Shown: piece after piece, positions 15,562-61,584 of the stretch | How the letters are laid out: the number at the start of each line of letters is the position of its first letter | Numbering within the stretch: position 1 is the first letter of the stretch | Source of the DNA: Lobosporangium transversale | Lineage: Eukaryota > Mortierellomycota > Mortierellomycetes > Mortierellales > Mortierellaceae | Assembly (NCBI RefSeq): GCF_002105155.1 | Contig: NW_019029001.1 | Location: 248,001 to 312,000 of the forward strand | Direction of reading: 5' to 3' | Length of the DNA stretch: 64,000 bases | Notes under the pieces: model-generated | Seen by the model: the letters and a program-made list of their open reading frames with translations, nothing else | Told to the model about the DNA's origin: nothing | Database searches by the model: none | Program-made: the position numbers and the translations under genes

Positions 15562-18330
15562 ATGGGTATAAAAGCCCTCTATTCACACCTTTCAAGAAGA
15601 GGTTGCCACCAAGAGGGGTTAATGTACATGAGCTTGCTGCTAAACCTGATTCATCTTTTAAGCTAGATCTGCTTGGCACTTTCCACAGCGATATACACAA
15701 TCTCATCCTAAGAAAATTCAACCGGCAGAGCTCTTTCACTGCCTATGGCCATGCTATGATTAATACCAATCTAAAGGTCTTTGGCCCACTTGCCACAGTG
15801 ACGGTACACATTGATGGGCCCCGCTGCAATGAAAAAGCCCGCGCTTATAAAGACCGAGATGCTAAGCGTACAACAACTGGTGCAAAGCTCGATACACTCA
15901 TAGCCAACATAGAAATTAAGCCCACTGAAGGGAAATGGGAATCTTGGAGCCATATGATTCCCATTAAAAAGAATCTTCGACAGCTCTTCACATTCAGTCA
16001 TAACGAGAAGAGGGGACTCGCAGCACCATTTGACCGATACAATAACTTCTTAATCTGCCATTGCGGCAATGAAGCTGATGTATGCTTTGCCGTCAAATGT
16101 ACGCCAACCAGTATCGCTGTATCTGGGGGCTCTGGTCTTTTTACCTATTGTTCTATACAAAGAGTTCTTCGTCTAATCTCTCATCGCCATCACATTTATG
16201 TGCATGAGAAGCAAGATGTCCTGGAAACCCTTGGATTTTCAAGTGACATTCCACTCCTGGTCTATGACATTGTATCCGATCACGATTACATCCCAAATAT
16301 CTCAACTGTTGGTCTTGCTACAAACATGAAGGCTCTTTCAGTAGTCATTGACACTGATGCCGAAAAGTTGGCGGCATTGTATGTTTGTGAGGTCCAGGCC
16401 AATAGCGCTCGAACTCCTTTAAAGGGCCAATTTGACAATTTAATCAGTGTTTTTTTTTTTTTTTTTCGCTAAGATTCAAACCCAAGCTTTGCAACAACCA
16501 ACCGCTAAAGGTTCCCTTATTACCATGACAGAATAGCCGCGGTATCCGCTAGGTACCAAAACAAAAATAATTAATCTCAACCCAGATAAGCTCCTTCGAA
16601 TGAACATTTTTCAAAGCGTATACAAAGAAACAAAAAACGAAGTTATCTAACCCTTGACATTGCTGTTTCGTAATTAGGCTCTTTATACCTAAATGCGCAA
16701 AGCCGGATCGCTATCGACCCGTTTTCCCTACTGTGAAACGGAACTCTCTCCTAAGAAATATGATCTGACTAACTGTAAACAACACGACCGTCTCGTCAGC
16801 CCCGATCATCAAAGAAAGCCCAGGAAAAAGGGAAGAGGATGAGGATGAAGATGAGAAGGGGGAGGGAGATAAGGAGGAAAGGAAGAAGAAAAAGAAGAAT
16901 AAAGGGAAAGCCAAGTACATCAGAAAGACTGATAAATCTAGGAAGGTGGAGGCTTGACTACTGCCAAGGATCGACGGTTGAAGAGAGCCCACCCCACTAC
17001 TGCATTAACTCTGGGTACGCTTAAGACGTGTATAGTTGCCAAGCTGAACTCCAACTCCGATCCCAATCTCAATCCCGAGTAACTTGCTGCTATAATCCAA
17101 GGGCTTATTTAATCCTTTATCAAAATGCTGAATGAGTTACGAATTCGAGCTTTCTGGGCCTGTGCCTTGTGATTGATAATCTGGTTACCATCCACAAGCT
17201 GCTCAACCTTCGAATACTCAAACATCTTAAGCAGCCTAGACTTCTTCGAGTGCTCAGCGGGGTCCCCCATCCTCAAGTCATGGCGCAGGCGATGGCGATG
17301 GCGGTGGTGATGGAGATTATGACGGGGATAAGGATGATGGTATCTCACTGGGTGTCAACGGTATTGACATTCTTAGATGGCGACGGAGAAGAAGCAGCTG
17401 AAGAAGATATATCGAGTATAAATCCGCTGTCTTCAGTGAACTCCAGCCCTCGGCGAGAGATCAGCTGGAAGTCATCTTCTCGACAATGTAGAGGTTAGAT
17501 ATGATACTCATGCACCATGCCCTCCCCTGGAAACACCATTATTATTGGATCCAGGCGAGAGGCGCTCGGTGATAATTGTAAAGTTGGATCCAAAAAAAAC
17601 CCCCTCCAATGAGCATGAGATCCTCCGGATTCTAGAGCGTATCTACAAATCATCCAAGAGGTTCCGGAGTGAGTTAGATAGGCGGGAGCTTGGAAGAGGG
17701 ATTACAGTAATTTAAAGCAACATTCCGTCATTCTCAAGACCCACTCTACCACAGTATTTCACTTATACGAGCTCACCGCCAAAATAAGCTCCATCAAGTA
17801 CTGGAGATAGCTTCGCTGGTAGTGGAGTTGGAGCCAATGACAACAATAGAGAGGCTATATATAGAGTGTTAGTCAATTTCTATAATGATGGATGGTTTGT
17901 TCGAAATATCTGGACAGTAGAAAAGCACTGAATGGATGCGTTAATTATGTAGTCAAGGCAATTCTGAAGCTTGCAGGCGGAAGTAATGGAAGAAGAAGAG
18001 GCACCAATACGAATGTGGTGATCTGTATTGGGCTTGGATCATTCAAGGCAAATCGAGAGCAAGCATCGAAGCATGAGATATTGACGAAGAAGCTTGTTGG
18101 AAAGGTTGAAAAAAATAAAAAATAAAAATCATGATCAATGGACATTTAATTTTTGGGTCTTTAAAATGGAGTATTAAGTATCCACGACCTCACTGCGAAT
18201 ACTTTGATCAGAAGTATGCTTTACAATTTCGACAGTACTTGAATCGGGGTGCTGTTGGTACTGAAAATATTGCAAGGGTCTGTGAGTCGCAGATAATACA
18301 GCAAAAATGACCTGCAAAATATATGCCGTA
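15562..18330 (+). pseudogene. XPG-Fanzor fusion pseudogene (copy 1)
   Basis: Homologous along its length to the copy 2 gene. The XPG part (15562-16445) starts MGIKALYSHLSRR, suffers a one-base deletion near 15602, then runs on as VNVHELAAKPDSSFKLDLLG. Two metal-ligand aspartates are replaced by glycine: SGGSGL at about 16122-16140, where copy 2 has SGDSDL. A T-run expansion (16449-16466) breaks the frame. The donor of the next intron is AT instead of GT (near 16593). Further decay includes stops near 17170 and 17714, a deletion that removes the start of the zinc-finger exon, and a small inversion at 18205-18246 in the zinc-finger/DRD region. The promoter TATAAATA of copy 2 reads TACAAATA here (near 15246). 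It is non-functional, but useful because it shows the ancestral codon where copy 2 has a stop at 24898. Confidence 0.85.
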
Positions 18331-18591: not shown

Positions 18592-19192
18592 CTAAACCAT
18601 TTTGGCAAACTCCTCGCGATCAACCTTGTTATCATTGTTCTTGTCAGCAGCCTTGATCATGTCATCGATATCAGAAGAAGTGGGCTTTTCTCCTTGACTG
18701 GCCAAGACCTCCTTGAGCTCTTTTGCTGAGATGGACCCATCACCATCACGATCAAAGCTCTGGAAGATGGCACTCACCTCCTGGGCGCTCTTTTGCTTTG
18801 GCTGACCCGAGACTGAGTTGGGGTTGTTGAGGCCAAGAGTCATGTAGACTTCCAAGAACTCATTAAAATTGATTTTGCCGTCTTTGTTATTGTCGCCGCG
18901 AGAGAAGAACCTTTGAATATCGTACTCCTCAGGATCACGGTTCAAGTTCTTGAGAGACTCAATGAACTCTTTCTCGGTGATGAAGCCATCGCCATCCTTA
19001 TCGATGGCATTGAATTGCTGTTTGATAAGGACAGTCTCTGATTCGGAATATTTATTGTTGGACTAGATATTAACAAGCCAATCAATGAGGGAATATGTAA
19101 ACTTGTTAATGGACGTTTTGGACTATTCTTTCATGCTATTGACGATAGAGAGAGAGAGGGAGAAGAGAGAATGAAAATGAAATACTTGCCAT
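18592..19192 (-). CDS. Four-EF-hand calmodulin-like protein
   Basis: A calcium sensor of 157 aa. Exon 2 (19062-18592) encodes everything but the initiator. The start codon at 19192-19190 forms a coding exon by itself and is followed by an intron (19189-19063) that begins GCAAGT and ends CTAG, a GC-AG intron. A GT donor one base further on would put a stop in frame. The EF loops are DKDGDGFITEKE, DNNKDGKINFNE, DRDGDGSISAKE and DKNNDNKVDREE. The fourth has Asn instead of Gly at loop position 6. The central linker has an insertion relative to calmodulin (LGLNNPNSVSGQPKQKSAQE), so it is calmodulin-like and not calmodulin itself. An ATAAATA sequence about 70 bp upstream is a TATA candidate. Element 1 ends just beyond the stop codon. 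Confidence 0.88.
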
Positions 19193-22295: not shown

Positions 22296-22373
22296 AGGAA
22301 TGATACCAAAAAATTGTTTTTGGCAAAATTGACTGCAAATAAATATTAATAGCTGTTGACTGAACTACCAATA

Positions 22374-22590
22374 TAGTCCGTCCCATTAAAAAACGACATT
22401 CCATCTATTGTAAAAAGAAGAAATGTATTAGAACACAGAAATAAATAAATAAATAAGAAAAAAAGTACTATCAAGCCAATACTTACAATTTTTTTAAGAC
22501 GAAGGCCTTTCTGGACCTAGTCATGTTTGTAGTAGATTGTGTCCTACTGTTGTTGCCGGCTTGTCTCTCCGCCTCCTCCTGGACCCAGCA
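22374..22590 (+). repeat. Element 2 left inverted repeat
   Basis: Shares with all other ends of the family the block CTTACAATTTTTTTAAGACG, then AAGGCCTTTC and GGACCTAGT. Its inner part overlaps the extreme 3' end of the fusion gene (GCCGGCTTGTCTCTCC). It is the partner of about 27600-28003. Confidence 0.75.
22480..22543 (-). ncRNA. Candidate Fanzor guide-RNA scaffold region (hypothetical)
   Basis: Just 3' of the Fanzor coding end, all four family ends keep AGGTCCnGAAAGGCCTTCGT (with small changes), then a short A run and TTGTAAGTATT. AGGTCC/GGCCT can pair around a GAAA-type loop. In known Fanzor systems the guide RNA overlaps the 3' end of the gene and the element end, so this is the place to look. 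There is no direct evidence of transcription. Confidence 0.25.
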
Positions 22591-25500
22591 AAGGTCCTTT
22601 CGGTGGTCTTGATCCCTCTACTCCTCCTCCTCCTCCTTCATCTGAAAATTTCCTTTTTGTGGATCTGCTACTACCACCACCACTGCCACCACTACCTCCA
22701 CCGCCGCCACTACCGCTAGAAGCTTGGCCTTGAGTTCCTCCGTCCGGCGGCATATATTTTGAGGTCGTTTTTGCTCTCTTATCTGCGACTCACAGACCCT
22801 TGCGATGTTCTCAGCACCAACAGCATCTCGATCAAAGTATGCTTTACAATTTCGACAGTACTTGGATCGAAAAGGAACATTCTCCAATATACTGTCACAG
22901 TGAGGCCGTGGACACTTGGCAGATGTGTAGTATTCATGACAACCTGCAATGGGGTAGTCTAGAGATTTTGCCTGTTCGAGCCAGATTTAATACTCGTTAA
23001 AAAAGAGACTCAAAAATTGAATGTCATTGATCAAGGGATTTTTTTTTTACCTTTTCAACAAGCTTCTTCATCAATATCCCATGCTTCGATACTTGTCCTC
23101 GGTTTGTCTTGAATGATCCTAGTCCAATACAGATCACCGCATTCGTATTGGCATCTCTTCTTCTTCCATGGCTTCCGCCCGCAAGCTTCAGAATTGCCTT
23201 AATCACACAATCAACGCATCCGTTCTGTGCTTTTCTAATATCCCAGCTATTCCGAACAAACCACCCGTCATTATAGAATTCGACAAGCGCCCTATATTTA
23301 GTCTCCCTATTGTCGTCACTGGTCCCAGATCCACTGCTACTACTGGCCTCAACTCCACTGCTACTACCGGTCCCTGCTCCACTGCTACTACTGGTCCCAA
23401 CCCCACTACCAGAGAAACTACCTCCAGTACTTGATGGAGCTTGATTTAGCGGCAAGCTCATATAAGCGAAATACTGTGTTAAAGTAGGCCTTGAGAATGA
23501 CGGAATATTGCTTTCAAATCTCTGTAATTCCTCTTCTAAGCTTTCGCCTCTCTAGCTCGCCCTGAAACTTCTTGGATGGTTGTAAAGATACGCTCTAGAA
23601 ATCCGGAGGATCTCACGTTCGTTAGGTTTCCTTGGATCCAACTTTGCAATTGTCATCGAGTACCTCTCGCCTGGATCGATCCCAATGATAATGGTGCTTT
23701 CGGGGGGAGGGCATGCTGCCTGGGTGTCATATTTAACTTCTACATTCTCGAGGAGACGGGATCTCTGCTTCCAGTTGATCTCACGCCAAGGACTGGGACT
23801 CACCGGGGACAGTAGATTTGTGCTTGATGTACCTTCTTCGACTGCTTCTTCTCCCTCGTCGCCATCTAAGAATGGTTCATCAACTTCCAGCAAGTCAATA
23901 TCGCTGATACCCAGCAAGATATCGTCATCTTCATTTCCGTCGTCGTCTCCGTCATCACCACCATCACTTGCACCATGGCCTGAAGACGAGGTTCCCTGCT
24001 GAGCACTTGAAGAAGCCTGGACTGCTTGAGATCTTTGAGTATCCGAAGGTTGGGCAGCTTGCGAACCTCTACCTCTTTTTTGCTTCGATGTGTCATAGGC
24101 AAGAAGTGTTAGGGTAAGGCCGTTTGTAAAGAACGATGTCCGTAGTTTCCTTCTAGGGCCATCATCAGATTGCAGTCCAACGTCCTTGTATCCTTTCAAG
24201 GAAAACAGCTCCTGCAACAATATCCCCTTGTGGTTAAGGATCTTGTCCTCTGCAGCCCCCTTGGTACTCATGTTTAGTTCCAACAATTGGACTATTTCCT
24301 CTCGAACTGTTGGGTTAGACCGTAATATATCCAGGAGGCAGGCTTCCGTTAGGCAGAGAGACCGAGGCGAGAAAGCAGACGTAGGGAAATCCAGATATTT
24401 TTTGGCAGTTGCATTTTGCTCAAAAAAGAATTGGATGGAACTTCTTCCATCGCCTGGAATATCTATGTCAAACTAGACATTATATTGAAGAAATGATTAG
24501 GAACATTTCTATAAACATATTATAAGATTATATTTACCTGCACATTCCGATAGTGAGACCTTAGCGCTGCTTGAACAGGGACCATGACCATCCGAGACGA
24601 CTTGCTGATCACCAAATCGGGATAGATCTGGTTTAAAGGACCAAGCCCTGTCTTTGCATAGAAGTTTTCGTATGCTTTGAGCTGGGACGGCTTGGCTACG
24701 TTCCCTTCGCCTTTTTTCTTCACTTCTCTGCTATACCTAGATAATGGACTCATCACTCCGTGATACAACAACGCAGCAAGGCCGTAAATAAAGTCCCTGC
24801 TATCAAGAACTTCATCTAGGAGTTGTGGGAGATCAGCTGGATTGGATGGCCCAGTGGTAAGCAGGTTATCGACCCACAAGGCGCAGGCCCAGAAAGCTCA
24901 AATCCGTGCCTCATTCAACATTTTAATAAATGATTGAATGAGCCCTTGAATTGTTGCAGCAAGTTGCTCGGGATTGAGATTGGGATCGGAAGTAGAGTCC
25001 AGCTTGGCAACTACACATGTCTTTAACGTGCCCAGAGTTAATGCAACAGTGGGGTGAGCCCTCTTCAACCGTCGGTCCTCGGCAGTAGCCTCCTTCACTT
25101 TCCTGGTCTTATCAGTCTTTCTGATATACTTGACCTTCCCTTTGTTCTTCTTTTTTTTCTTCTTTTCCTCCTTAACCTCCTCTTCTTTGTCATCCTCTTT
25201 TTTTTCCTTTTCCTTTTTTTTGGGGGACTTTCTTTGATGGCTGGAGCTGACGGGACGGTCGTGTTGTTTGCAGTTGGTCAGGTCATATTTCTTAGGGGAA
25301 AGTTCCTTTTTCTGGGTAGGGAAAACAGGCCGATAGCGATTCGGCTTTGCGCGTTTAGGGATATAGAATCTAATTAGGCACAACAATGTCAAGGGTTAGA
25401 TGACTTTTTTTTTTTTTTTTTTTTTGTATATGCTTTGGAAAATGTTCATTTGAAGGAGCTTACCTGGGTTGAGGTTGATTATTTTTATTCTGGTACCTAG

Positions 25501-26485
25501 CAGATATCGCAGTCCTCATTCTATCATGGTAATGAAGGAATCTTTCAGCGGTTGGTTGCTGTGAAGCCTGGGTTTGGATCCTACCAAAGAAAACATTAAT
25601 TGAATGGTCAAACTGGCCTTCTGCAGGAGTTCGACGGCTACGGGCATGGACCTCACGAACATATGATACCGTCAACTTTACGGCATCAGTGTCAGTGAGC
25701 GCAGAGATAATCTCAGCATTTGTAGCAAGACCAAAGGTTGGGATATTTGGGGTGTAATCGTTATCGGATATAACGCCATAGACCAGGAGTTGACTGTCCC
25801 TTGAAAACCCAAGGGCTTGCAGGACCTCTTGTTTCTCATAGAGTGCAAACATGTGATGGCGACGAGGGATTGGACGAAGAACTCTTTTTATAGAAGGATA
25901 GATGAGAAGGTCAGAGTCCCCAGACACAGCGATACTGGTTGGTGTACATTTGGCGACAATACACACATCAGCTTCATTTCTACAATGGCAAATCACAAAG
26001 CTATTGTATCGACCGAATGGGGCCGCGAGCTCCCTCTTCTCGTTATGACTGAATGTGAAGAGCTGTCGAAGATTCTTTTTAATGGCAATCATATGGCTTC
26101 GAGATTCCCATTTGCCTTCATTGGACTTGGTTTCCATGTTGGCTATGAGCGTATCGAGTTTTGTATCCGCTGCTGTACGCTTAGCATCTCGGTCCCTATA
26201 GGCGCGCGTTTTTTCTTCGCAGCGAGGCCCATCAATGTGTATCGTCACTGTGGCAAGAGGACCAAAGATCTTTCGAATGATACTAGCCATAGCATGGCCG
26301 CAGGCAGTGAAAGAACTCTGCCGGCTGAATCTCCTTAGGATGATATTATGTATATCGCTGTGGAAAGTGCCAAGCAGATCCATCTCAAAAGATGAATGGG
26401 GTTCAGCAGCAAGCTCATGTACATCAATCTCCTTTGGTGGCAGGTCTCTCCTTGAAAGGTATGAATAGAGTCCTTTAATACCCAT
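22544..26485 (-). pseudogene. XPG/FEN1-like nuclease fused to Fanzor (copy 2, nearly intact)
   Basis: Exons: 26485-25464, 25369-24538, 24472-23051 and 22971 to about 22544; all three introns are GT-AG and keep frame, about 1230 aa. Residues 1-300 are XPG-like: start MGIKGLYSYL and acidic residues D36, D85, E171, D173, D190, D192 and D243, matching the seven FEN1 metal ligands in order. A Lys-rich linker follows, then a Fanzor: FFTNGLTLTLLAYDTSK, RuvC-I IIIGIDPGERYS (near 23670), VICIGLGSF in place of the usual RuvC-II Glu, HEYYTSAKC, zinc finger CPRPHC/YCRNC, and FDRDAVGAENIA. The HEYYTS Glu may be the relocated catalytic residue described for Fanzors. The exon 1/2 junction (CCCAG to ATTC) joins both halves in frame. 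Defects: TGA at 24898-24900 (copy 1 has CGA), TAG at 23552-23554 within a patch of three one-base insertions, and probably one lost base near 22758. Some may be assembly errors. Confidence 0.85.
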
Positions 26486-26709
26486 CTAGAGAAAGTATAG
26501 TGTAAAACAGTGCAAGCAATGTTGGTTTAAACGGCTAAAGATTGAAGCTGAAGTTGTTAGAGTAGAGATAGTTTACCTTTAAGAAAGCAAAAAGTTATGA
26601 TCTGTGAGGGGATGAGGATGTAAGAGTACGGGTGAGAGCGCGAAAGCAATGTCGTTGTAAAATGAGAGAGAGAGAGAGGGAAAAGAGAGGGAGGCAGGAC
26701 GTATTTATA
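26486..26709 (-). promoter_or_regulatory. Promoter and leader intron of the copy 2 fusion gene
   Basis: TATAAATA lies on the minus strand at 26709-26702, followed by CT-rich sequence. A leader intron runs from 26576 (GTAAAC) to 26486 (TCTAG), so the ATG is the first codon of the next exon. The same layout is recognisable in copy 1 at 15246-15561, where the TATA box and the acceptor (TCTAA) are mutated. Confidence 0.65.
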
Positions 26710-27029
26710 GGTGTATGAAAGAGAACGAAACAAAAGGCTGATGAATATGGAACAACTCGCATTTAAACTAAAAAACAAGATTCTCAGCGACAAGTTTTAA
26801 CTTTTTGGATTTTGAGTATTGTTTACAGCTCTTCTCCAATCATCTACATTTACCAAATCAAGCCTTCGCCATGACAATCAACAAGAAATAAAAAAAAAAA
26901 AAAAACAGACTTCCTTACGTCCCCCTTCGGTATGTGTATCTGTCTGAACACGTCCTAACTGACATCCTCTCGACAATCCTTCCAAGGCTGCAGTGTTTGA
27001 ATGTGTACAGGGAACAAAAGAAGTCTAGA

Positions 27030-27545
27030 TACAGGCTCTCTTTGTGACATTGAAGGAGATCGCATGTTTCATGGCTATCGAGACAAGGTACCCCTACAGG
27101 CACAAGACAAAGGTATAACTCGGTTCAAACTCAAAGGAACGACTTTACCAATGGCCTTGTTCTGAATCCACTTGCCTATGACACAGTCCAGACGAAGAGA
27201 CAGCAGCAGTCTGACGTAGATGAAGAAGATCTCAGCCAGGAATTGAAACTTTCTCAAGGATTCCTTAACACGGCGTGTTTTAAAGGCAGCCGGTGAAGGC
27301 CTGATAGATGAAGACTACGCAAACATAAGCTGGAAGAGGGGCCCCAAACTTCTTGAAAACGTTGGACTCATATTCCATGAGCCAGGGCGATGCTCATTTG
27401 CAAATACCACAACTACCGTCTAATGCGATCCTGGTATTGTTAATGCCCTTACGTTTTCTTCGCTAGACCGTCACAACCCTGACCTGCGTCAAACGGTGAA
27501 GGTGAGAAGTAGGCTCGTCAACAGCCTGTGTGCCTTATATGCGTT
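27030..27545 (+). pseudogene. Relic of a second, divergent Fanzor
   Basis: Plus-strand frames with stops show NDFTNGLVLNPLAYDT, VQTKRQ, then SWKRGPKLLENVGL and CDPGIVNALTFSSLD. These align in order with the copy 2 gene (FFTNGLTLTLLAYDT, NWKQRSRLLENVEV and GIDPGERYSMTIAKLD). CDPG is the RuvC-I motif; the codon two before the CDPG aspartate is TAA, where a sense codon is expected. A possible splice donor GTGAGAAG follows at about 27501. The zinc finger and DRD region are not found. The sequence is too divergent from the minus-strand gene to be a simple inverted copy. It points toward the right inverted repeat, as the fusion gene points to the left one. Confidence 0.65.
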
Positions 27546-27599
27546 GCACCAATGCTCACTGACAGGTTGAGCCTAAACTCGAGATACCAAAATAGCCTT

Positions 27600-28003
27600 C
27601 TTTGAATCCATGGAGGAAAGACACCAAGCCGGCAACAACAATAGGATATGATCAGTTGCATATTTCACAGTACACGTGTTACATGAAAATTTATAATACA
27701 GACATACTAACAGCTCTATGTCCCATGGTGTGGTGCCCGAGACAAACTTGCAGTTTTATTTTGATACAAATTTGGATAAATGCCCCATGGATGTGATGTG
27801 TGAACCCACATCCTATTCTCACTTCTGCTCCCTGGTTACTATTCGTCTGTCTAAAATATTTCATGAGCTACTACAAACATGACTAGGTCGGGAAAGGCCT
27901 TCGTCTTGAAAAAGTTGTAAGTATTAGCTTGACAGTGCTTTCTTGACTAATCTCTTTATTTCTATGCTTGGTCTAGATGGTGTTTTTTTATGGGGAGGAC
28001 TAT
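27600..28003 (-). repeat. Element 2 right inverted repeat (interrupted)
   Basis: Two matching blocks, about 27628-27650 (CAAGCCGGCAACAACAATAG) and 27868-28003 (GACTAGGTCGGGAAAGGCCT, donor-like GTAAGTATT, TCTAGATGG, terminal GGGGAGGACTATT). They are separated by about 220 bp of unrelated sequence, so this repeat has an insertion or has diverged. Confidence 0.65.
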
Positions 28004-31000
28004 TTAGACAACATATAGACCCCACATATCCTAATCTATAATGAATTGGTTTGGTGATATTGTTGTAAAAAATAGGTATATCTTCGCTTAAGGGACAGAA
28101 AGATAGACACAAGCAGGAAAAGGCAGGACAAAGGGTGTCAACAAGGTTAACAAGAGAAAATAGAGTCAAATAACCTTGACTACAAACAGCACCATAGAAT
28201 GTCAAAAGATGGGAGCTTTATAGGTGAGCTCACAAACTGAGTTACCGGAAGACAAATGCTTGTTGTGAAAAGGGGAAAAAGATAAATGGCAAGATGAACT
28301 GCGGATGAAGAATAAGACATGTGGGGAAAACTGAAGACTTTATTAAGAAGGAAGTTTCTTTGGCTTTTATACTCGGTAGTTTCTAGGTGAGGCGGACCCG
28401 CCTATGACTACAAAGGCTTTGCGCAAAGATTCCTTTAAGCTGGTTCGACAGATTAGTGGATACAAGATAAACTGAAATTAATTTTAATGACCAGTTGACC
28501 AGTCACACCACTTGCAATAACAAGCGAGTCAATTGGCTGCCAATACATTTAAGAGTATTCAAAAAATATAAGGGATTGCGACCAAATGGAACTGGCTATA
28601 CTAACCTGTACAAGCCATAAAAGGATCGCGTGTGCCTGATTTCCATACTTTCTGATCTTAACATCCACGTGAAATGGAGTGAGAAACGATCACTATTTAA
28701 TAATAATGATCATTGTCTTTATAATTGCAATACTTGTTTATAAATCTAACTATTTTAGTAAAACGTTATAATTGAGCAAGAATTAACGTAATGTTTATCG
28801 TTAAGCTGTAATGTAAGAAAAGCTGTTTCAGCCAAGGAAGCACAGCATCCTTATATTGGGATTGTGAGTCTATTCAAGTAAGGAATGTTTCGCTGGGTGT
28901 CATCATATAACAAATGCAATTAAAATAGGCGGTGGCGATCATTGCGTAGAAATTATCCGTTTCTCCCTAGCCCGTTATGTTTCAGCATTTTTCACCGTCC
29001 AGCGAGGCGGGTTAACATAATAAAAATTAAGGAGAAAAGAGCCGATTTGTGTAAGGTAATAAGGGTCTAATATCACTCTCTAAGATGCATGTATAAATAT
29101 AAATGTAATAACATCAGCAATGAGCCTGCCAAGTTACCATAGTCTAGTGGGTTCGAGATTCAGAAACTCCACGAGACCAAAGTTGATGTATATATATATA
29201 TATAGTATATATAAATGTGTATGTATAAATGTAACGCTACTACATTGTTGACATTTAGCAACAAAAGCACAGATCGCCACAATGTGTATAAGCCAATATA
29301 GGCTATTTATTATAACATTTACAAGTCATTCACTCTGTTGATGGTAAGGCATCGATGAGGGACACCCTTTTTTGTTTGTGGCAACAAGGCATATCATGAT
29401 CGAATAAGAGTTATGGCAATAAACAAACAACCAACAAATGGACATGTCGACTCTCGACTCCCGCCAGCCCTGCCACCTCCTTTTTCTTTCAAAAATCTGT
29501 GACGTTAGATTGGTGGACAGATTCTGGCTCTCTGTCCATGCGACGCTTTGGTACGTTATATAATATGATTCTGTTCTCAATAGGAGCCCACATCGCTGAG
29601 AAAAAAGACCTGTTTTGTGGCGGTTCATTTTGATGTTTGAGATATTCATTTATAATATAAACATGTATATTACACATATATATATATATATATATAATAT
29701 TATAGGTATATATATAATATTATAGGTATATATATTTAAAGTAGAGGAATGATATGGTGGCTGATTTTACATGTGGAGGTTCACGACAATACGAGGTAGA
29801 CCTTAATGTTTATTACTTGTTTTAGATTTACTGAAGTTTATTCCTGTAATCTAACCTAGCCACGCATCTCGGCAGTTGGAAATCCCCCGAAATAAAGACC
29901 CTGCTCGGTCTATGCAGGTTCCAGCATGCATGGAGTTGAAGTGAAAGGAACTTCATCTTTTTATTGGTCTCCACAGACCGCGTTGCTGCGGGCTTTTTTT
30001 GAAAAAAAAAAAAAAAAAAAAAAAAAAGTACTTGAGTCCCTGATTTATCCCGTAAATCAACTTGGAATAGAATAAGTATACATCAAGGCTTACCATTAGA
30101 AGGCTGATTTTGTGGATAATTTTATACGGGATGTTTGAAAAGCAAATTGAATGCAGGCCTTTCTTCGCAGCTGCAACTGCTCCGAAAATCTGTGACTTAC
30201 CAAAAAAAGATTGTCGCATGAAGGTATATTTGTATACGGCATATGTATAAGGATTGGAGCATAATATGTAAAACGCATGAAAACGAAGAAGTGGGAGGAG
30301 TTGTGGAAAGGGATGATGAGGACCTATCTGCGGAATCACGAACCATGCACATTTGTTCAAGAATGCACTAGTCTATAGTACTTCATAATAGGGGAGGGAC
30401 AGATGGATGCGCGTGTGAAATGGACTGTAATAGAGGACCCTGATAAATATACAAATACACATATATATATATAATATATTATAAATGTTTGTTTAAATGT
30501 GTGATGCATGGTTGCTCTTTACATTGTGTAAATCATTGAGTGTCTTGAGTCCACACGCCTTTCATTAATTCCCTCATTCTCTGTTTGTGTCTCCTATCTC
30601 GTCATAGACTGCAGCCCATCGACAACAAAGAGGTGAGATACAAATTAAACAGTAGTCTATCCCTTTTCTTCTCTTGGGGCTTCTCTCATGCAGTCGTAAT
30701 CAGCGGCAGTTGAAAAACAGCAATCTTCATGTAGGGACCAGACTACAAATGTATGGTCCGGTTCAGTAGGTTACAACCTATATATTTTTACACAAAGAGA
30801 TGAATAAATTAATTTTGGTGGCTGACAACAAGTAAATTAATTGGCTACCAATACATCCGAAATAATCGGCTAGATTTGCCGGGTTATTATATATCTTATG
30901 AACCAGTACATAATCTCTATATATATATATATATATATACATGTATATGTTTATTATACATATATGGAATAAAGATTTTATAATTTGTACGTTGAACAGG

Positions 31001-41938: not shown

Positions 41939-44353
41939 CTACTCGTCCGCATCTTGGTGGCAGCCTTCGTCATTCCCGGTGTCTTTCAGAAGCTCTAGTC
42001 GAATGGAATTGATTGTCCGACCCTTGTACTGAGCTGTCAGTGCGTCTACTACCTCTTCGAAGTCTCGCTTCTGTTTTTCGGCAATATTCTTTATCAGATC
42101 GAAAATTTGACGCCTGCGCCTGAATGCCTTGTGACGCGCCTCTGTGAATGGCCATTTGTGATTTTCCTGCTTTGCCTGAGCAACGGGCCCACGGAATTCA
42201 TCCCATGCTTCCCTGACCGTCAATTGCTTGCCATCGCCTTTCATGAGGTAGCCTTTATACCTTTCATCTTCCGGCAATCGTTGTGTCTGCTCTGAGGTCA
42301 TTGGAGCCTGCACATGGCTATGTTGATATGGCTGTTGCTGAGGACATGGTGGCAATTGGTTGGAAAATAATGGCTGCTGTTGCGGTGGAGTGGCCTGGCG
42401 AGCTTGATATAGACCCTGCGTAGTAGGAGCCTGAGGAACCGAAGGAAAAGAAGCTAGGCGGCTCTGTGCTGGCGCCAATGGAGAAGGATTAAACACAAAG
42501 GGCGGGCAAGACTGCACATGATATGGAAAAGGCTGCCGCACATTTGCGCTTTGTTGCTGCTGCAGCGATTGGAGAAGTAAGTGGATTTGCTCCTGTTGCT
42601 GCCTCTGTTGCTCCTGTTGCTGCCTCTGTTGCTCCTGTTGCTCTGTCACAAGGGTGGATAGGGCCTCGAGCTTCTGGACCGTCTCATGCTGGAGTTGATG
42701 AAAGACCCGCGCCTCTACCGACAACGTGTTAATGGCGCTTACCATAGTTTGCGCATTAACTGGCACATCCGCTTGGATGATGCCTGCTTGTCGGCGATGT
42801 ACGTCGATGGCCCGAAGCAATTGATGTTGGAAATCCAGAAAGAGCTGGCAACCAAAGATTTCTGGTAACGACTCGAGGAGTTTGTTCTCCAACATTTTCC
42901 CCTTGTCGTTCGGCTTCAAAAAGAGCACTGCATCCTGAAGGATTACTCGCCTCATACGCACAAGAAGTTTGAGGAACCCAATGCGTGTAACAAGGGAGTC
43001 AGTGCTGAAGGCACGGGTCAATCGTTTCGAGCTCGTCTTCTTCTCGATTGGCGTCCAAAAAATGTCTTCGTCTGTCGGGACATTTGGATCGACCCCCAGC
43101 ATTTCTTTGGCGCACTCCTCTCTCCAGGAGTCAGCTCTCTCCGGCATATCTTTATCAAAATTTTCCTCAATCCAAGGAAAGACCAGACGCTGGAGCTCTA
43201 AGGGCGGGGTGACCAAATCACGCTCGATAAAGTAAGGCTCATTCGGTCCAAACTGAGCCATACAAAAAGCGCCCCTGGTTGGGTTTTTTGGAGCATAGAA
43301 GTTCTCCATTTGCCCCATGACCCACCTTCCCAAGTGGCGAATATCGTCCAGGCTTAAGCCTCTTTCGTAGGCTTCCGAGACCCCTGCATGTCGGCCAGAG
43401 TGCGTAATTTTGGCCGAATGCACGTCGCAGGCACGCATTACAGCCGCCGTAGTGCTCATTTGGGTTCGGCCAACAAGCGCTTCCTTTCGGTTCTCTAACC
43501 GTTCTTGGCTTGTTCCACCCCCTGTTAGCACCTTGATGCTGTACCACTCGTCAGGGTCCGCAAAATTGGGAAGAGGCTCCTTGAACACCTACAATAGGGA
43601 AAAAAAAAAAATAAGGATATATGTCACTTTGTGTAATTGAATGAGAAAAAATCATACGCTCGCGTCAAGACTGACGGCATCATTTACCTGGAACCGTTCT
43701 AGCATATAAAATGCAAACCCGCCCACGGTGCACCTTAAGAACAGCTTATGTCGATAAGCTGTCGCATAGAGTTCGACACCTTTATGGTTTGTCTTTCCAC
43801 GTGTGATGCAGAAGACAAGCCCCGACGCCAGCTTTGACCCTGGCGCGGGGTGACGGGTCTGAATATTGAATGTGTTAGCCAGGTTCAAGTTTCGGATGTC
43901 CTCATCCCGCAGCAACATATGATGGCGTGCAAGGAGGCATAGCCTCTCCCTCATATACTGAAATCTTGTAACACTGTCGTAAGGTCGCCTGCCGCTTACT
44001 CCAACCGTCGGAAGCATGCGCCATGTAAAGGCCAACATACGCAGGTACATTTTAGTGTTGTAAGGTTCTCGTACGGCACAGGTGGCAGTGCGGGATAAGG
44101 TGCCTGTCGTTACTTTGTGATGGACAAGTTTCTCTCCATAATTTTTGATCGCCTCCGCTAGTGGTACATCCGTTCTTGGGTTTGGGGCGGGATTGGGATA
44201 CGGAGCTGTCGAAGAAGACTGTTGCCTCCATAAGTATTGCAAAGCCTTCTTAACATTTGCGACTGTCCCCAGCGTGAGAGGAACAAAGACAATTTTGCTG
44301 CCATGTTTGTCCTCTGGTGCTTGCAGGATAACTACAAACGCAAAAGTATATCC

Positions 44354-44384
<31 letters not shown>

Positions 44385-45798
44385 TTGTATATATAATAAA
44401 AAGTATCAACCATTAGTGTAAATTGTAACAATCAAAGATACATTAAGGTGGATGCAGGATTAAGGAATGGTTTATTAAGTCATAATTTAGTAGGCTATTT
44501 ATATTGATAATTAACACTGAGTTGCGGCCATGGTGTCTTGTCACCTGGGGTACGCGTGATGGCGGAGCCTTCCCAAAGGTTTGGATCCCAGTACTGTATA
44601 ACAATTTATATATTAATACATGGTTATCTTTACATACCTTGTTCTCTTTCATTTTCAGTCCTGATAACGGCTGCAGTCTTCCGCTTCGGCGTGATGTTCT
44701 TGCTTGAACCCCCAACAGTTACAGCTTCATGTGATGCTCGCTCCTCATCATTCAATGCTATATCAATCTGCCATTGATGTGGGTCGACTCCTTCAGGTGG
44801 CTCCATATTATCCCAGGAGGGAGGAGCCTTCTTACCTCTCTGTGCCAATGACCTCAGCTGAAGCTCCAGATCTTCATCCTGTTCCTGTTCCTGTCCTTGT
44901 TCCTGTCCCTGTCCCTGACCCTGTCTCCGTTCCTGATCCTGTTCCTGACCCTGTCCCTGACCCTGTCCCTGTTGTTGACCTTGGTCTATGCTTTGGCCGT
45001 CGTCGTCATCAACTTGCTCGCTGTTATCTAATGTCTCCAGTCTCTGCTCCATGTCGCTTAGTTCATGTTCGTCGATATCTGCCTCGACTAATTCGTCGAT
45101 CTCTTCTCCCTCATAGACTGCGTCTTCCCCAGCCTGAGAATTCGAAGAATCTCCTCCACCCTGCTGGGCATACCCAATAGCGCCACGGTAGCAACGATCT
45201 GTGCCGATCAATCGCTTTACTGTTCGCTTGAAGACAACCGTTGTGAAGTATTCAAGCATGCGTTTCGCATCGACGCTACAGTCACCTTGATAATTTTCAT
45301 TGCAGTATTGCTAAAAACAAAAAAGAGAATTAGCCAAGTCGTCTAGTTTGATAGCCTGTCTGAGATAGCTCATAGCGACATTTTGATGATCCAACATACC
45401 TCCCACAGCCGGAGCTGTGTCTTATATTGATTCACTGTCGTCGATGAATCTGGATCATCTAAAATCATCTGCAGCACACTTCTCGCCGACTCCTTCCGTG
45501 CGTTCGCCAGGGCCAGCTCTTCTTCTGTCAATGGACCGGAGTGAAGGACATTTGAGGATAAAGAATCAGCCTCACAACGCCTAGGGCGCTTAAAAGACTT
45601 TGCACTAACTCTAGCAGTCTGTGCCACTGGTGAAGGCTCTGGAGTCGTTTCGTCAGTCAGAATAACTCTTTTTCTCCTCGGTGCTGCACGAGTGGATCCA
45701 GTGCGAGTACTTGACTTGGTTGGCTTCGTCTGACTGGTGCTTTGTTCCAAATCCATGCAGGTGAAATTGGATAAAATCTTTTCGTTGTTGTTTGTCAT
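41939..45798 (-). CDS. Crypton tyrosine recombinase with C-terminal GCR1_C-like domain
   Basis: Four exons fit: 45798-45400, 45310-44638, 44331-43688 and 43588-41939, giving an uninterrupted 1121 aa. An N-terminal helical segment (QYKTQLRLWE|QYCNENY, spanning the first intron) resembles the DNA-binding part of Cryptons and Ndc10. A long acidic, Gln/Gly-repeat linker follows. The recombinase core has the Arg in LLRDEDIRNL, then KTNHKG, HSGRHAGVSEAYERG (H-x-x-R), LGRW and the tyrosine in NFYAPKNP. After a Q-rich coil (QQEQQRQQQEQ), the C-terminus (TVREAWDEFRGPVAQA, AFRRRRQIFDLIKNI) matches GCR1_C, a DNA-binding domain known in fungal Cryptons. Intron 2 (44332-44637) contains a 26-nt T tract and an LTR-like TATA/AATAAA pair. 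The intact frame means a young element or a domesticated gene. Cryptons lack inverted repeats, so I cannot fix the element ends. Confidence 0.85.
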
Positions 45799-46199
45799 TT
45801 TGAAAGTGAGCAAGCAGGAATGAACCTTTGAAAATGCGAATGTGCCGTTATTTTTCTCAGTTTTAGTCAGGGGAGAGGGCAAGTCTACTCTGTGTATTGT
45901 AGGTTTTATTGTTTTATTGTGTATATGAATGTATGGAGGAATGAAGGCGTAAAATAAAGAAGAAAGAAAGAGATCTTTAGCATGCCATGATGACATTGTT
46001 AAAATTTCGATGGATTTGATGTCAATTCAAATTTCAGGACAAGTGTCGGAGTAAAAGCCACAAAACGGACACATGTCTTGTACGTACAGACATGAAACAT
46101 AATACCCTTAAATGGAAAAAGGGCTGGATTTGGCATCATAATCCATTATAGATTAATCCTAATAAAAAAGCCAGAAATATCTTAAAAGATATCATCTTA
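45799..46199. other. Crypton upstream region
   Basis: Upstream of the Crypton start. No gene; AT-rich, with GTTTTATTG repeats near 45905. This probably contains the Crypton promoter and one element end. Confidence 0.35.
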
Positions 46200-46273
46200 T
46201 GTTTGTACTCGGACTCGAACCGAGGACCGTCTGTGTGTTAGACAGACGTGATAACCAACTACACCATACAAAC
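46200..46273 (-). tRNA. trnV-AAC: tRNA-Val (AAC)
   Basis: Read on the minus strand: acceptor stem GTTTGTA/TACAAAC, D-arm TGGTGTAGTTGGTTATCA (A box), anticodon stem GTCTG/CAGAC with loop TAACAC containing AAC, and T-arm CCTCGGTTCGAGTCCGAG (B box GGTTCGAGTCC). No intron. A Ty3 LTR starts about 20 bp upstream of its 5' end. Confidence 0.95.
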
Positions 46274-46293
46274 ATCTTGATGCGGTGTTTGTC

Positions 46294-46698: not shown

Positions 46699-46830
46699 GG
46701 TCTTAACGAGCCCAATAATCAACGATCAGTCCACAGTTTTTTTTTTGGTCGCACAGTTTTTATTTGTCAACAGTTTTATTTGTCCACAGTTATTTGTCCG
46801 TAATTCGGTTACACAGTTTACAAATAGTTT

Positions 46831-48390
46831 ATGGTGGTTTTTAGCCCACCAAGTGATACAGAATCGGAATCAAGTTATACCACGGCAGAAATGGATGCAG
46901 CAGAGATATTTGCACAGCGTCAGCAACAGTTGCAGCAGGCCTCGAGTGAGGAGCTCGCGCGAAGAGTCGAGGAGCTCACTAGGCAACTCGAGTTCGCCAA
47001 TAATCAATTGGCCTCAGCACCAGCGCCCCCGGCAGTAAGCCGATGGCTGGACCCTCACAGGCCAGCCCCGCAGTTTGCCGCTCAGACCTCTACTTTCTCG
47101 GGGCACGAAGTCGCCTTCGACCTTGATGCTTGGCTCAAGTTCATCGAGCTGCAGTTCCGGAGTCAGACGTGGCCGGACAACAAGAAAGTTCCCAGTTTTG
47201 TCACCATCCTCAAGGGAGGTGCTCTGTCGTGGGCCCTCCAATATATCGATGACAAGGGCGAAGACATCGGTTGGGATGCGTTCAAGGAAGACTTCGTTAA
47301 GAGATGGACGCAGACCCATCTTTCACAGAACCTGAGGGCCCAGTTAGACGGGCTAAAGATGGAGAAAGACGAGGCCCTAATCAGCTTCATGAGCAGATAC
47401 GTAGCGTTAGCCAACAAAATCCATGACAAGTCTACAATGGACAAGAAGTTGGAGTTAGCCAGAAAACTCCCACAATATATCCGAAACAAACTTGTTGATA
47501 TCATGAGGCCTGAGGATTCGCTCGAGACCTTCACTCACAAGATTGCCTTGAAGGATCAAGACCTGTCGGCCTTCAGATCCCTCACCAGTGGCCATGCGGG
47601 GGGAAACCCAGTCCATGGCAGTCGTAACCTTGGGTTTAGGTCGCAGTCCTTCGCTAGTACTAATGCCGACGCCCCCAGGTCCAGTGTGCCAAGTGCGCCA
47701 GACATGTCCATGGATTTGGACCATGTCCGGCAGCGTTTCACGGAGGAAGAGCTTGAGGTTGCGGCCATGCAGACTCGCCAGCATAGTGAGGGTCGAAAGT
47801 GCTTCCACTGTGGCAAGAACGGCCATATCAAAGCAAACTGTCCAGATAGAAGTAAGCCGCGATGCTACGGCTGTGGGATCCCTGGACATAGAATAGAGTA
47901 CTGCCCTGGCAATAAAGGTCGCAATTCTTCATCGTATATTTTACAGTCCTATCACCTAAAGAATGGCAATACCCCAGAAAATTATAAAGAGTTGAAGCGG
48001 CCGGTGCACGAAGTACGCGCAAAGGTCGGAACCTTAGGGGCACGCGTGCTGATCGACTCCGGTGCTTCCGGTAACTTCGTCTGCTCTGAATTCATAAGGG
48101 ATCTCAAGAAGGAAGACTACCGTTTACTACCCTTACCTAAACCAGTCAGGATCCTGATGGCTCGTGGCCAGAGCTCTGTCTCGTCAACCACGGCTACTCT
48201 TGCTCTCAGTATGGGCGACGAGGTAATGAGAGAAACGGGAGCCGTCGTTGATAATTTGAGATACGATATCATCCTAGGGCAACCCTGGCTGCGAAAGTGG
48301 GAACCCGCAGGTAAATTGGCGTACTGGAATATACAAATGGCAAGGTCGAAAAGGTTGGCAGGCGATACGCAGCGTAAGGGAGGAAAATAA
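46831..48390 (+). CDS. Ty3 Gag-protease
   Basis: 519 aa, intact. The capsid region (FSGHEVAFDLDAWLKFIELQ, FVKRWTQTHLSQNLRAQLDG) is followed by two zinc knuckles (CFHCGKNGHIKANC and CYGCGIPGHRIEYC), then a retropepsin-like domain with active site LIDSGASGNFV and the downstream DIILGQPWL motif. A TAA (48388) separates it from pol, so readthrough, frameshifting or a separate start would be needed. The first codons are uncertain; MDAAEIF at 46891 is an alternative start. Confidence 0.85.
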   Translation: MVVFSPPSDTESESSYTTAEMDAAEIFAQRQQQLQQASSEELARRVEELTRQLEFANNQLASAPAPPAVSRWLDPHRPAPQFAAQTSTFSGHEVAFDLDAWLKFIELQFRSQTWPDNKKVPSFVTILKGGALSWALQYIDDKGEDIGWDAFKEDFVKRWTQTHLSQNLRAQLDGLKMEKDEALISFMSRYVALANKIHDKSTMDKKLELARKLPQYIRNKLVDIMRPEDSLETFTHKIALKDQDLSAFRSLTSGHAGGNPVHGSRNLGFRSQSFASTNADAPRSSVPSAPDMSMDLDHVRQRFTEEELEVAAMQTRQHSEGRKCFHCGKNGHIKANCPDRSKPRCYGCGIPGHRIEYCPGNKGRNSSSYILQSYHLKNGNTPENYKELKRPVHEVRAKVGTLGARVLIDSGASGNFVCSEFIRDLKKEDYRLLPLPKPVRILMARGQSSVSSTTATLALSMGDEVMRETGAVVDNLRYDIILGQPWLRKWEPAGKLAYWNIQMARSKRLAGDTQRKGGK

Positions 48391-51300
48391 TGGCCAGCTG
48401 GCTTCAAATATTGAATCTACCGGGGCGAGCGACAATAAGAGCGTTAAGGAAACTGCAGAAAGGACAATGGAAGGAGACGTCATAGAAAGTGTCGCAGAGA
48501 CAGTGGCAGGCACAGACGAACTGTGGAATACGACAGTAAGAGAGGGCGAGGAAGCAACAATGGGAAATGTGAAGAGCGATGGAATGGAGCAAGTAGAAAT
48601 GGTGAAAGCAAATGAGGAGACAAAAAATGGGGAATCTACAGAAAAAGAAAAAGATCATCTGATCTCAACCTCTGCAGAGCATGAGGCCAAGAACCGTACA
48701 GACGTTCGCCTCGTCGGAGTGAAGCATTTCAAGAAGATCCTGAATACTACAGAGGATTATGGAGTTTGCTTTATCAGTGGGGACGAAGTAGAGTTAGTGG
48801 TCAATTCCGTTGACGCCGCCGGTGAGGAGCAGAAAAGGTCCCAGAGAGATACCGCGCGCTGATAGAGGAATTCGCAGACTCCGTCTTCGCCGACTTGAAC
48901 AAACTTCCCCCACACCGTCACGTTGATCATCGCATCGAGACTGGCTCGGCCCTCCCTATCGCCATGCCGGTGCGGAGGATGTCGCCTGAGGAACTGGATG
49001 CATTAAAGGAGCAATTAGAAGAGCTGCAGAAGAAAGGCTTCATTCGGCCCAGTATTTCCCCTTGGTCAGCGCCCGTTGTATTCGCTAGGAAGAAAGACGG
49101 AAGCCTCCGTCTGTGTGTAGACTACCGCGCGCTCAATGCAATTACCGTCAAGAATAAGTACCCTCTGCCACTCATTGATGAATTCTTCGACCGACTCTCA
49201 GGTGCAAACCGAGTTTTCTAAACTCGATTTGCAATCAGGCTTCAATCAGATTCGAGTCAACCCCAGCGACGTGGAAAAGACCGCTTTTGGTACCCGCTAT
49301 GGTCACTTTGAATATTTGGTGATGCCTTTTGGTTTGATTAACGCACCTGCGTCCTTCCAGGGGATGATGAATGAAGTTCTGCAAGGCGTCTAGATAAATT
49401 TTGTTTAGTCTTCATGGATGATATCCTAGTATTCAGTCGCAACCCTGAGGACCATAAGGAACATTTGCGTTGGGTACTTGAACGTCTGGCGAAATATCAA
49501 CTCAAGGTCAAGATGTCCAAATGCGAATTCGGCAAGCCTGAACTCCTCTTCTTAGGCCACGTTGTGAGCGGTGAAGGCTTGAAAGTCGACCCCTCAAAGA
49601 CAGAAAGCATCCAATCATTGACGGCGCCCACCAATGTTCAAGAGGTTCGTCGATTTTTAGGTATGGCTGGCTACTACCGCAAATTTATTAAAAATTATGC
49701 CTCTCGGGCCGCTCCCCTCAGAGATCTCACAAAAGAAAAAGACAACAACAAAATCAAGACCAGACCTCTCCCCTCGCCGTGGGGCGAGAGAGAACAAGCT
49801 GCCTTCGACGACCTCAAGCAAGCCCTCGCCTCAGCTCCCGTTCTACGCCTTGCCGATTTTTCTCGCCCCTTTTTCATCGAGACTGATGCGTCCCTCACTG
49901 CCATTGGTGCCGTCCTGAGTCAGGACTTTGGTTCAAACGGCCGGAAGGAAATGCACCCTATCGCTTTCATGTCGAGGAAATTAGATGAGGGTCAGCAGAA
50001 ATGGCCAACACATGAGCGCGAATTGTATGCAATTGTGCGCGCTTGCGACGAATGGCGTACTTATATCCAGGGCAGAACAGTCAACATTTTGACCGACAAT
50101 CACAGTTTGGTGTTCTTAAAACGACAAAAAGGCATGAGCAGACGCATGGCGGGATGGAGCCAACACATGGAGCAACAAGATCATGTTATCATCTATCGTC
50201 CGGGCAAGGATAATCCTGTTGCCGATGCTCTTTCTAGGCCTAATGAGGAGAATACCAAGGACGTCACCTGCAACTTCATGGAACTCGCCAACGGGGGAGC
50301 TCGGAATAAAAGAGAGTAACCACGACGCAGGTGTTGAGGCGTTCGAGGAGGCATTATTGATGGCCATGCAGAGTTTGACGAGACACTGGAAGATATGGAT
50401 TGGCCTCTATTAATGGTCGAGTATAAGGAAACGGGCACCCTCGCTGACCCCGCACACCAGGACTTCCTAGGTTTAATGAGGGAGGAAGAGGATAATTTTG
50501 TGGTGGAAGACGGGAAAGTGTTTAGAGTGATGGGTGATACGCAAGTAGAATTTTTAAATTTCGCTCGGCGCGCAGATTACATGGCCAAAATGCATGAAAG
50601 TATGGGACACCCCGGTGCGCAAGGCTTATTTGAACGCATCCAGCCTAGATATTGGTGGCCTCGTATGCGTGAGAGCATTCAAGAAGCATGCCGTACTTGC
50701 AAGGAATGCCAGCTGACTCGCGGAGGAGCAACGGTCACCGAACCTCTCCACACTTTCTCGGTGGCTAAACCCTTCCAACGCTGGGATATCGATTTCATCG
50801 GACGCTGTCCCAAGACTAAGAATGGAAACATGTGGATAATAGTCGCTGTAGATTACGCCACTAGCTGGACAATAGCCAAAGCTACGCCTGACGCCACTGC
50901 CGAGACAGTCTCAAATTTCATTTATGAGGAAATTGTCATGAACTTTGGTTGCCCCGCAGAGCTGATTTCCGATAGAGGCAGTCAGTTCATGTCAGAGGTC
51001 CTGCGAGAATATCTTAAGAAGATGAAAGTTAAACACCGGCTCACCTCCGCGTATCACCCGCGCACAAATGGCAAAACCGAACGCACTAATGGCATCCTCG
51101 GCGCCGCATTAACAAAATACGTCGGTGATAAGATGAAGCACAAGTGGGACCTCTTTCTAGATCAGGCACTTTTCGCCTGCCGCACCAGAATACATAGCGT
51201 ATCTAAGAAGTCACCATTCTACCTAGTCTATGGAGTCGAGCCCACGATACCTGGCGACCTCACTCGTCCTTATGTATTCGATGGAGCGGTTTTCACAGAG

Positions 51301-52044
51301 GTTCAAGCCGCGAGAGAGGCCGAGCTTGAAAGATTGAAACTTGAGAGGCTATCAAACGAGGAGCGGCAACAGGAAGCCGCAAGGCTCATGGAGGAAAGGT
51401 ATAATGAGAGACATGACATCGACCCCGAAGCTCCGAGGCAAGTGTACGAGATTGGCGACTGGGTTTTAGTAAAAAACATAGCGAAAAGGAAATTTGAATA
51501 CCCTTGGTATGGACCATTGCGTGTCGAGACGATTACCCCTTTTGGCGCCTACAAGCTTATCTGGCCCGATGGAAAAGCGAAAATGGACCTTGTGCATAAA
51601 GACCGTCTGAAACCAGTGAATCTACCCGCGGGTAGTCCAGAACCGACGCGCGCATGGTATAAAACCCGCAACAGTCGCGATGAACTCACCATCCCCATGG
51701 AGACCATTCAAGAAGAAGACGAGCGAGGGCCTCAGTCGGAGCCAGAAGTAGGTACAGCAGTGCAACCCATACCCCTCGAAGGTTCATCGCGTACAACGGC
51801 CCCATCATCATCAGCAAGGCCCGCAGCTACCGCATCGCCCCCTCCTGCGCGACCACCACGTTCCCTCTCAAGGCCCAATCCAAAGATTGACGCCGCAGGG
51901 GCGGCTTGGATTTCTCGTGGGGAGTCTGTCCTAAATCGAGGCAACTTAAGCTCACGTCCTATAACAAGTGACGTCATGGTAGGTAGGACCAGAGGTATAC
52001 CTATAGTGGTACCCTCAAACCCACCCCGTCCTGCCTGGACGTGA
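48391..52044 (+). pseudogene. Ty3 pol (RT-RNase H-integrase), frameshifted
   Basis: Segments in three frames: RT ([20 protein letters not shown], then FMDDILVFS), RNase H (FFIETDASLTAIGAVLSQ), integrase zinc finger (HESMGHPG, CRTCKECQ) and core (WDIDFIGRCPK, LISDRGSQF, YHPRTNGKTERTNG). Frame changes occur near 48830, 49210, 49390, 50290 and 50370, each by one or two bases. Protein similarity resumes at once after each. The integrase frame continues into the 3' LTR and stops at 52044. No chromodomain was seen. Confidence 0.85.
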
Positions 52045-61367: not shown

Positions 61368-61389
61368 ATCAACATCTTCGTTAATTGGT

Positions 61390-61584
61390 TGCAAAAGTCA
61401 AGGTAGTGTTCTAGGGGGATCTAAGGGTGCAATAAAGGTATCTTTATTCAGGGGGAACTATGCTACAGAACTAGATAGAAAAGTAGACCTATTTATACTA
61501 GTTAATATCCTGTTGCAAGGAATGCTCTAGAAATATGGGCGAAATACTATGTTGCACAAAATTATTATAGTGATTTCGCTTGCA
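61390..61584 (-). repeat. Putative 3' LTR of Ty3 element B
   Basis: On the minus strand GGGAAGGA (polypurine) precedes TGCAAGCGAAATCAC. TATAAATAGG, then AATAAAG follow, and the repeat would end at TTTTGCA (195 bp). Element A's gag frame starts within a few bases of this edge, and the sequence does not resemble element A's own putative LTR, so B seems to have inserted into A. Confidence 0.5.

Follow-up and report, generated by a model that had tools for sequence, protein, structure and literature searches.

The stretch of DNA considered here, hereafter the window, comprises 64,000 nucleotides of the fungus Lobosporangium transversale (NCBI RefSeq assembly GCF_002105155.1, contig NW_019029001.1, positions 248,001 to 312,000). 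It carries a minus-strand gene that appears to fuse a nuclease domain of the FEN1/EXO1/XPG superfamily to a Fanzor1. Fanzors are eukaryotic relatives of TnpB. Sequence and prediction together establish a joined gene, both active sites in complete form, the nuclease fold and a transposon context. The whole may be described as a gene of a Mortierellaceae DNA transposon that encodes one protein, composed of the superfamily nuclease, a disordered lysine-rich linker and the Fanzor1, and combining guided cutting with end processing, a description to which we give an even chance of being right.

An earlier note on this DNA had described a flap-nuclease open reading frame (ORF), an intron and a Fanzor with RuvC, zinc finger and DRD motifs, and all these features are found at the coordinates it gave. 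The nuclease ORF (26485-25463, minus strand) comprises 341 codons, contains the seven acidic residues claimed for it (D36, D85, E171, D173, D190, D192 and D243), and is joined in frame by a 94-nt GT-AG intron to a Fanzor with GIDPG, C4 zinc finger and DRD. The GTAAG donor of this intron contains a TAA that would terminate the first ORF. Besides this intron, two others had been missed (24537-24473 and 23050-22972), and while the joined architecture holds, the window copy is a pseudogene rather than an intact gene, being interrupted in exons 2 and 3. The gene is structured as follows:

25464 to 26485, minus strand: exon 1, XPG/FEN1/EXO1-type nuclease domain
25370 to 25463, minus strand: intron 1, 94 nt, GT-AG, phase 2, connecting the nuclease exon with the Fanzor part
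24538 to 25369, minus strand: exon 2, which encodes the lysine-rich linker and the first part of the Fanzor, with a premature TGA at 24900-24898 in the window copy
24473 to 24537, minus strand: intron 2, phase 0
23051 to 24472, minus strand: exon 3, Fanzor with RuvC-I GIDPG (about 23683-23669) and GLGSF, with a 1-nt frameshift near 23582 in the window copy
22972 to 23050, minus strand: intron 3, phase 0
22544 to 22971, minus strand: exon 4, which contributes the alternative glutamate of RuvC, the C4 zinc finger and DRD; PF07282 at 28.9 bits

That this observation is real and beyond chance was confirmed at the level of models, by a Cas12f1-like_TNB match over the Pfam cut-off and a predicted EXO1/FEN1-like fold of the nuclease part. 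The fold is that of the superfamily, and the seven acidic metal ligands, together with the basic gateway K and R (which align with 1a76), occur in its order and spacing, by FEN1 residue numbering. The set is complete in the proteins P0001, P0011, P0012, P0013, P0014 and P0016, and also in P0015, where the E/D pair was judged by eye. Compared to FEN1, EXO1, XPG (Rad2) and GEN1, the domain is only 10-16% identical and differs in its fusion to an RNA-guided nuclease; where FEN1 has E160, the second glutamate of its Glu-x-Glu pair, the domain has Asp, and the Rad2 match of P0011 is weak by sequence (E 0.014).

The Fanzor part can be assigned to Fanzor1, a group treated in three sources (Bao and Jurka 2013, PMC3627910; Saito 2023, PMC10432273; Yoon 2023, PMC10711439), the last of which describes Fanzors as RNA-guided DNA endonucleases. 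The pattern D-X(125,275)-[TS][TS]-XX-C4-X(5,50)-RD of Bao and Jurka is present, with a distance from D to TS of 223 in the genomic copy C51 and 187 in P0011, while P0015 and P0016 conform to Fanzor1 by DPG, TS, C4 and RD, with DPG-E gaps of 170 and 197. The DPG of RuvC-I and the alternative glutamate six residues ahead of the zinc finger (Yoon) are found by a relaxed pattern in all four complete proteins; the strict search string of Yoon matches none of the four, owing to a first Cys pair of the form CxxxxC and to a spacing of 170-218 rather than 120-160. PF07282 (cut-off 26.3 bits) is passed by the window (28.9), P0011 (33.2), P0015 (29.2) and P0016 (33.4), and scores below the cut-off in the exon of L065, a member of a second family treated below (23.9), in P0009 (25.3), P0010 (13.8) and P0013 (14.2). 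The likeness to Fanzor1 thus comprises the D-X-[TS][TS]-C4-RD motif, the DPG, the position of the alternative glutamate and the residence in DNA transposons with inverted repeats; the differences are the first Cys pair, the added N-terminal FEN1/EXO1-type domain and disordered lysine-rich linker (about 90 residues in P0015), and a length of 1186-1502 aa in the complete deposited proteins. In a fold comparison with the full-length protein the match list was occupied by the nuclease domain, and by sequence the Fanzor part has weak matches to the S. punctatus Fanzor (E 0.3) and a TnpB-like L79 (E 0.063); a PDB sequence search with P0015 matched no nuclease or Fanzor chain. In PGv-1 an endonuclease (GIY-YIG) gene accompanies the Fanzor as a separate gene, whereas here the partner is FEN1/EXO1-like and in the same reading frame; two further Fanzor transposons compared with PGv-1 have a methyltransferase in the same place.

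Genome-wide locus searches were confined to the 42.7-Mb genome of L. transversale, and all search counts are lower bounds. At least 15 copies carry the nuclease exon at 96-100% identity (family 1), and the exon of the window is 97% identical to a protein annotated in this species. The 341 codons are open in 14 of the 15 copies, the match in the fifteenth (C58) beginning at residue 20. The borders of intron 1 are unchanged in all 15 while its length varies between 83 and 108 nt, mostly via an A-run, as expected of removed sequence; the GT-AG of intron 2 is kept in 14 copies, and intron 3 is present in 12, the other three having a deletion there. After splicing, C51 alone is uninterrupted, being open for 1209 codons with a tail after the DRD in a different frame from the other copies, two copies are open to 944 codons and the other 12 stop at 23-766; the count for the window copy was made with intron 2 left in, and its stop comes earlier. 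Several premature stops fall within or close to the lysine-rich A-run of exon 2, a homopolymer in which assembly errors are possible. A further copy in the window was thought to have the same domain order, which it does, as an old relic:

15594 to 18322, plus strand: copy 1, degenerate, nuclease exon (67% identity, three in-frame TAA) with Fanzor fragments downstream

Its gene model, P0002, has G in place of both D190 and D192. In addition, 12 relatives (L045, L046, L048, L050, L051 and L053-L059) share a right junction of a segment that stands in place of the nuclease exon, of exon 2 and of the first part of exon 3, a derivative that has multiplied. Of the 15 family-1 relatives compared, these 12 regain homology at an identical base within exon 3, and 10 of those 12 also lose it at an identical base upstream of the nuclease exon (the left part of L051 and L053 was outside the view). 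In the three copies translated (L045, L048 and L055) no matching reading frame was seen in the replaced stretch of about 1.1-1.4 kb. That such XPG-less copies are functional Fanzors with another N-terminus was rejected; they look like non-autonomous derivatives.

The same architecture recurs in a second family, which is about 31% identical to family 1 in the nuclease part and 37% identical when the fused proteins are aligned. The GTAAG donor enclosing a stop codon is found in seven of the eight family-2 copies read, and in the eighth (L029) the nuclease continues into the Fanzor linker in one 512-codon frame without the intron. Four loci modelled across all exons have introns 1, 2 and 3 at the family-1 places, with phases 2, 0 and 0 (the third judged by exon frame), and after splicing the reading frame runs for 984, 955, 552 and 372 codons, all four being incomplete. 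A third, divergent lineage is represented by L086 (G000:C79:167500-170750), where nuclease fragments are followed by a Fanzor with NEYYTSKKC...HRD, both broken. Among the matches listed (81 nuclease and 119 Fanzor loci), 64 of the 81 nuclease-exon loci have a Fanzor zinc-finger match within 6 kb downstream on the same strand, with two upstream and two on the other strand. Pooled pairwise pN/pS, calculated from non-independent pairs, is 0.42 for the nuclease exon of family 1 (14 copies, 91 pairs), 0.58 for that of family 2 (8 copies, 28 pairs) and 0.35 for Fanzor exon 3 (11 copies, 55 pairs); between the families synonymous sites are near saturation (pS 0.83).

The sequence behind the junction itself appears to be coding. 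Downstream of it, 149 residues in family 1, and 107 in family 2 counted from an FYI motif, are devoid of Met. This stretch is 36% identical between the families over 118 aligned columns (a value to which the lysine run contributes, the low-complexity filter being off), with a conserved start (FYI...QHDRP) and end (HP..ALT.G.LK). With no internal start codon, the stretch must be translated from an exon further upstream, a position that the nuclease exon occupies.

Beyond L. transversale, protein searches with the nuclease exon, the fused alignment and P0011-P0013 gave 8, 6 and 5 proteins, or 17 ids after overlaps, 16 of them from Lobosporangium, Entomortierella, Mortierella, Podila or Benniella; the search requires shared 5-residue words and scores the best candidates only, which makes the observed range of the fusion a minimum. 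Complete fusions are P0011 of Podila verticillata (1260 aa) and P0015 and P0016 of Mortierella alpina (1186 and 1502 aa), in which every nuclease position and every Fanzor motif is present, while P0012 and P0013 (Benniella), P0014 (M. antarctica) and P0017 (Podila horticola) are partial; Podila, Benniella and M. alpina belong to the Mortierellaceae. The earlier note had named, as evidence against a fusion, intact relatives that always keep the two ORFs apart; the single-protein fusions of Podila and Mortierella show the contrary. Maximum-likelihood trees of the two halves of eight proteins have four of five splits in common, and neither half rejects the topology of the other (AU p 0.39 and 0.13). 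Six peptides of P0011, scanned once against viral contigs, gave no match, which does not prove absence from viruses.

Taken together, a fusion of nuclease and Fanzor is supported at the sequence level by an identical intron-joined architecture in two families of such low identity, by the uninterrupted C51, by single deposited proteins with both active sites in two other genera, by the conserved Met-free stretch and by compatible trees. Several observations weigh against the reading proposed here. The public L. transversale model P0001 (341 aa, 13 members) ends at the nuclease exon, and because of the TAA inside the donor an unspliced transcript would yield exactly this protein. The joining is known from sequence and from deposited gene models that look automatic, and 14 of the 15 family-1 copies have a broken or shortened Fanzor frame, although the nuclease exon is open in 14. 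Among the matches listed, 17 of the 81 nuclease loci and 55 of the 119 Fanzor loci are without a partner match; part of these 55 are deletion derivatives, others may be without a nuclease domain or have one too divergent to see, and one C55 locus gained a partner when a third-lineage query was used. Metal ligands are lost in P0003 (N for D85, V for E171), P0008 (G for D36), P0002 as noted above (G for D190/D192), L065 and L067 (N for D192), L030 (G for D85) and the family-1 copy C24 (G for D36). The last 200 nt at the 3' end of the element fold no better than shuffles (z -0.12), which gave no sign of a guide RNA there. Finally, of the two profile families suggested at the outset, Cas12f1-like_TNB was recovered (28.9 against 26.3 bits) and XPG was not: XPG_I scores 14.8 bits in the window against a gathering cut-off of 24.9, XPG_I_2 scores 17.5 in P0016 (cut-off 24.2), and no XPG model is listed for P0012, P0014 or P0015. 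The domain is therefore labelled a superfamily member by fold and residues and not an XPG/FEN1 orthologue.

The unit first perceived as a fused gene is, besides that, a transposon with terminal inverted repeats (28600-22372), composed of:

22372 to 28600, gene on the minus strand: whole family-1 element, about 6.23 kb, delimited by the end of homology among copies and by the terminal repeats
28585 to 28600, minus strand: left terminal inverted repeat, TATAGCCAGTTCCATT in the window copy, one base off the family form
22372 to 22387, plus strand: right terminal inverted repeat, TATAGTCCGTCCCATT
27054 to 27296, plus strand: within the 5' part of the element, an ORF resembling family-2 Fanzor frames by eye, taken as the antisense relic of such a Fanzor

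An older Fanzor element thus seems to have supplied the 5' part. Among family-1 copies, homology stops at TATAGCCCGTTCCATT and its partner TATAGTCCGTCCCATT, and the pattern of these inverted terminal repeats has 41 exact sites in the genome against none for a reversed control. Among the ends read in the 14 copies tried, TATA is found at 9 of 11 left and 9 of 10 right ends; in nearly all copies the base before the left TATA position is a G, which pure duplication does not explain. Family 2 has no clear inverted ends, the five longest inverted pairs in each of four loci being only A/T-rich runs. No DDE transposase frame was noticed by eye among the ORFs of the window element or of L065-L067; a DDE_3-like piece at 15.4 bits (below the cut-off of 28.6) precedes the element of L064, and its neighbouring frame has 50 matches in the genome. 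Sailor (DD82E) transposons have been described in L. transversale (PMC8533490) and share with the present element TATA at the ends and a right repeat beginning with GTCC; the element differs in that no transposase frame was noticed within it, and its TATA duplication is only putative.

As for function, EXO1 resects DNA, FEN1 and XPG cut flaps and bubbles, and TnpB promotes the persistence of its element by cutting sites from which the element has been lost. The protein may couple guided cutting to flap or end processing. More specifically, though with rather less than even confidence, we suggest a natural two-nuclease RNA-guided enzyme, evolved in fungal transposons, in which the Fanzor makes a programmed break. 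The FEN1/EXO1-type domain on the same chain would resect the ends or remove their flaps, or would cut the bubble of the R-loop, thereby directing repair to copying. In the main reading, held above at even odds, an RNA from the end of the element would direct the Fanzor part to cut allelic or sister sites without the element; the nuclease part would then trim or resect either the 5' ends or the R-loop's displaced strand; and repair of the break by copying from the occupied site would retain the element after loss by cut-and-paste. For transposition the element would depend on a Tc1/mariner-Sailor transposase acting in trans, given that none of the elements read had a noticeable transposase frame. 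Guide RNAs of Fanzor1 reach about 15 nt beyond the duplication of the transposon (PMC10711439).

An alternative that we consider unlikely, albeit worth weighing, is that the gene yields two proteins, frequent retention of intron 1 giving the 341-aa nuclease, which may act in trans in transposition or repair, and splicing giving the fusion. It would account for the stop codon within the GTAAG donor (15 of 15 family-1 and seven of eight family-2 copies), for P0001 and its 13 members being of the 341-aa form, and for nuclease exons that are open where the Fanzor is broken, but P0011, P0015 and P0016 are deposited as single proteins and the Met-free stretch leaves the Fanzor part in need of the upstream exon. 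More improbable still is that the nuclease serves excision or gap repair of the transposon and shares a polypeptide, but no functional link, with guided cutting. The FEN1/EXO1-like fold and catalytic residues and the location within a repeat with inverted termini would fit such a role, as would P0005 (Entomortierella lignicola), where the nuclease follows a DDE_1 piece; against it stand the continued pairing of nuclease and Fanzor across the lineages observed and the compatibility of their trees, which suggest joint work. The P0005 model, which joins a DDE_1 transposase end (26.9 bits, cut-off 22) to the nuclease exon, probably represents two neighbouring genes of one element. A chance neighbourhood of two transposon genes, merged by the intron model without a joined product, is strongly disfavoured and was rejected as highly improbable: a joining known from sequence, automatic-looking models in other species and the absence of a complete joined frame in 14 of 15 family-1 copies would allow it, but it is opposed by the intron position and phase shared by two families, the 64 of 81 linked loci, the conserved Met-free stretch, the intron-less L029 and the single proteins of two other genera.

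The remainder of the window contains other features. Judged by eye, an open 381-codon frame resembles a Tc1-type transposase (53102-54247, minus strand), two sets of long frames resemble gypsy-type long terminal repeat (LTR) retrotransposons (46828-52044, plus strand; 56336-61397, minus strand), the frames at 41939-45310 (minus strand) resemble a tyrosine-recombinase (Crypton-like) element, and a calmodulin-like EF-hand frame lies between the two Fanzor copies (18592-19062, minus strand). A tRNA-Val gene is located at 46199-46274 (minus strand).

Fanzors and 5' nucleases are both known, and their combination is, as far as searched, new: no description of a Fanzor paired with a FEN1/EXO1-type nuclease was found in the literature searched by title and start of abstract, although one may exist among closed-licence papers and preprints, which were outside the scope. 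Fanzors are under development as genome editors, and the proposed enzyme, if real, would be a natural template for 'cut and resect' editors. In several genera of one family of soil fungi, an RNA-guided nuclease borne by a transposon carries a FEN1/EXO1-type domain, and if the proposed function is true this would illustrate a possible way for a transposon to govern how the breaks it makes are repaired.

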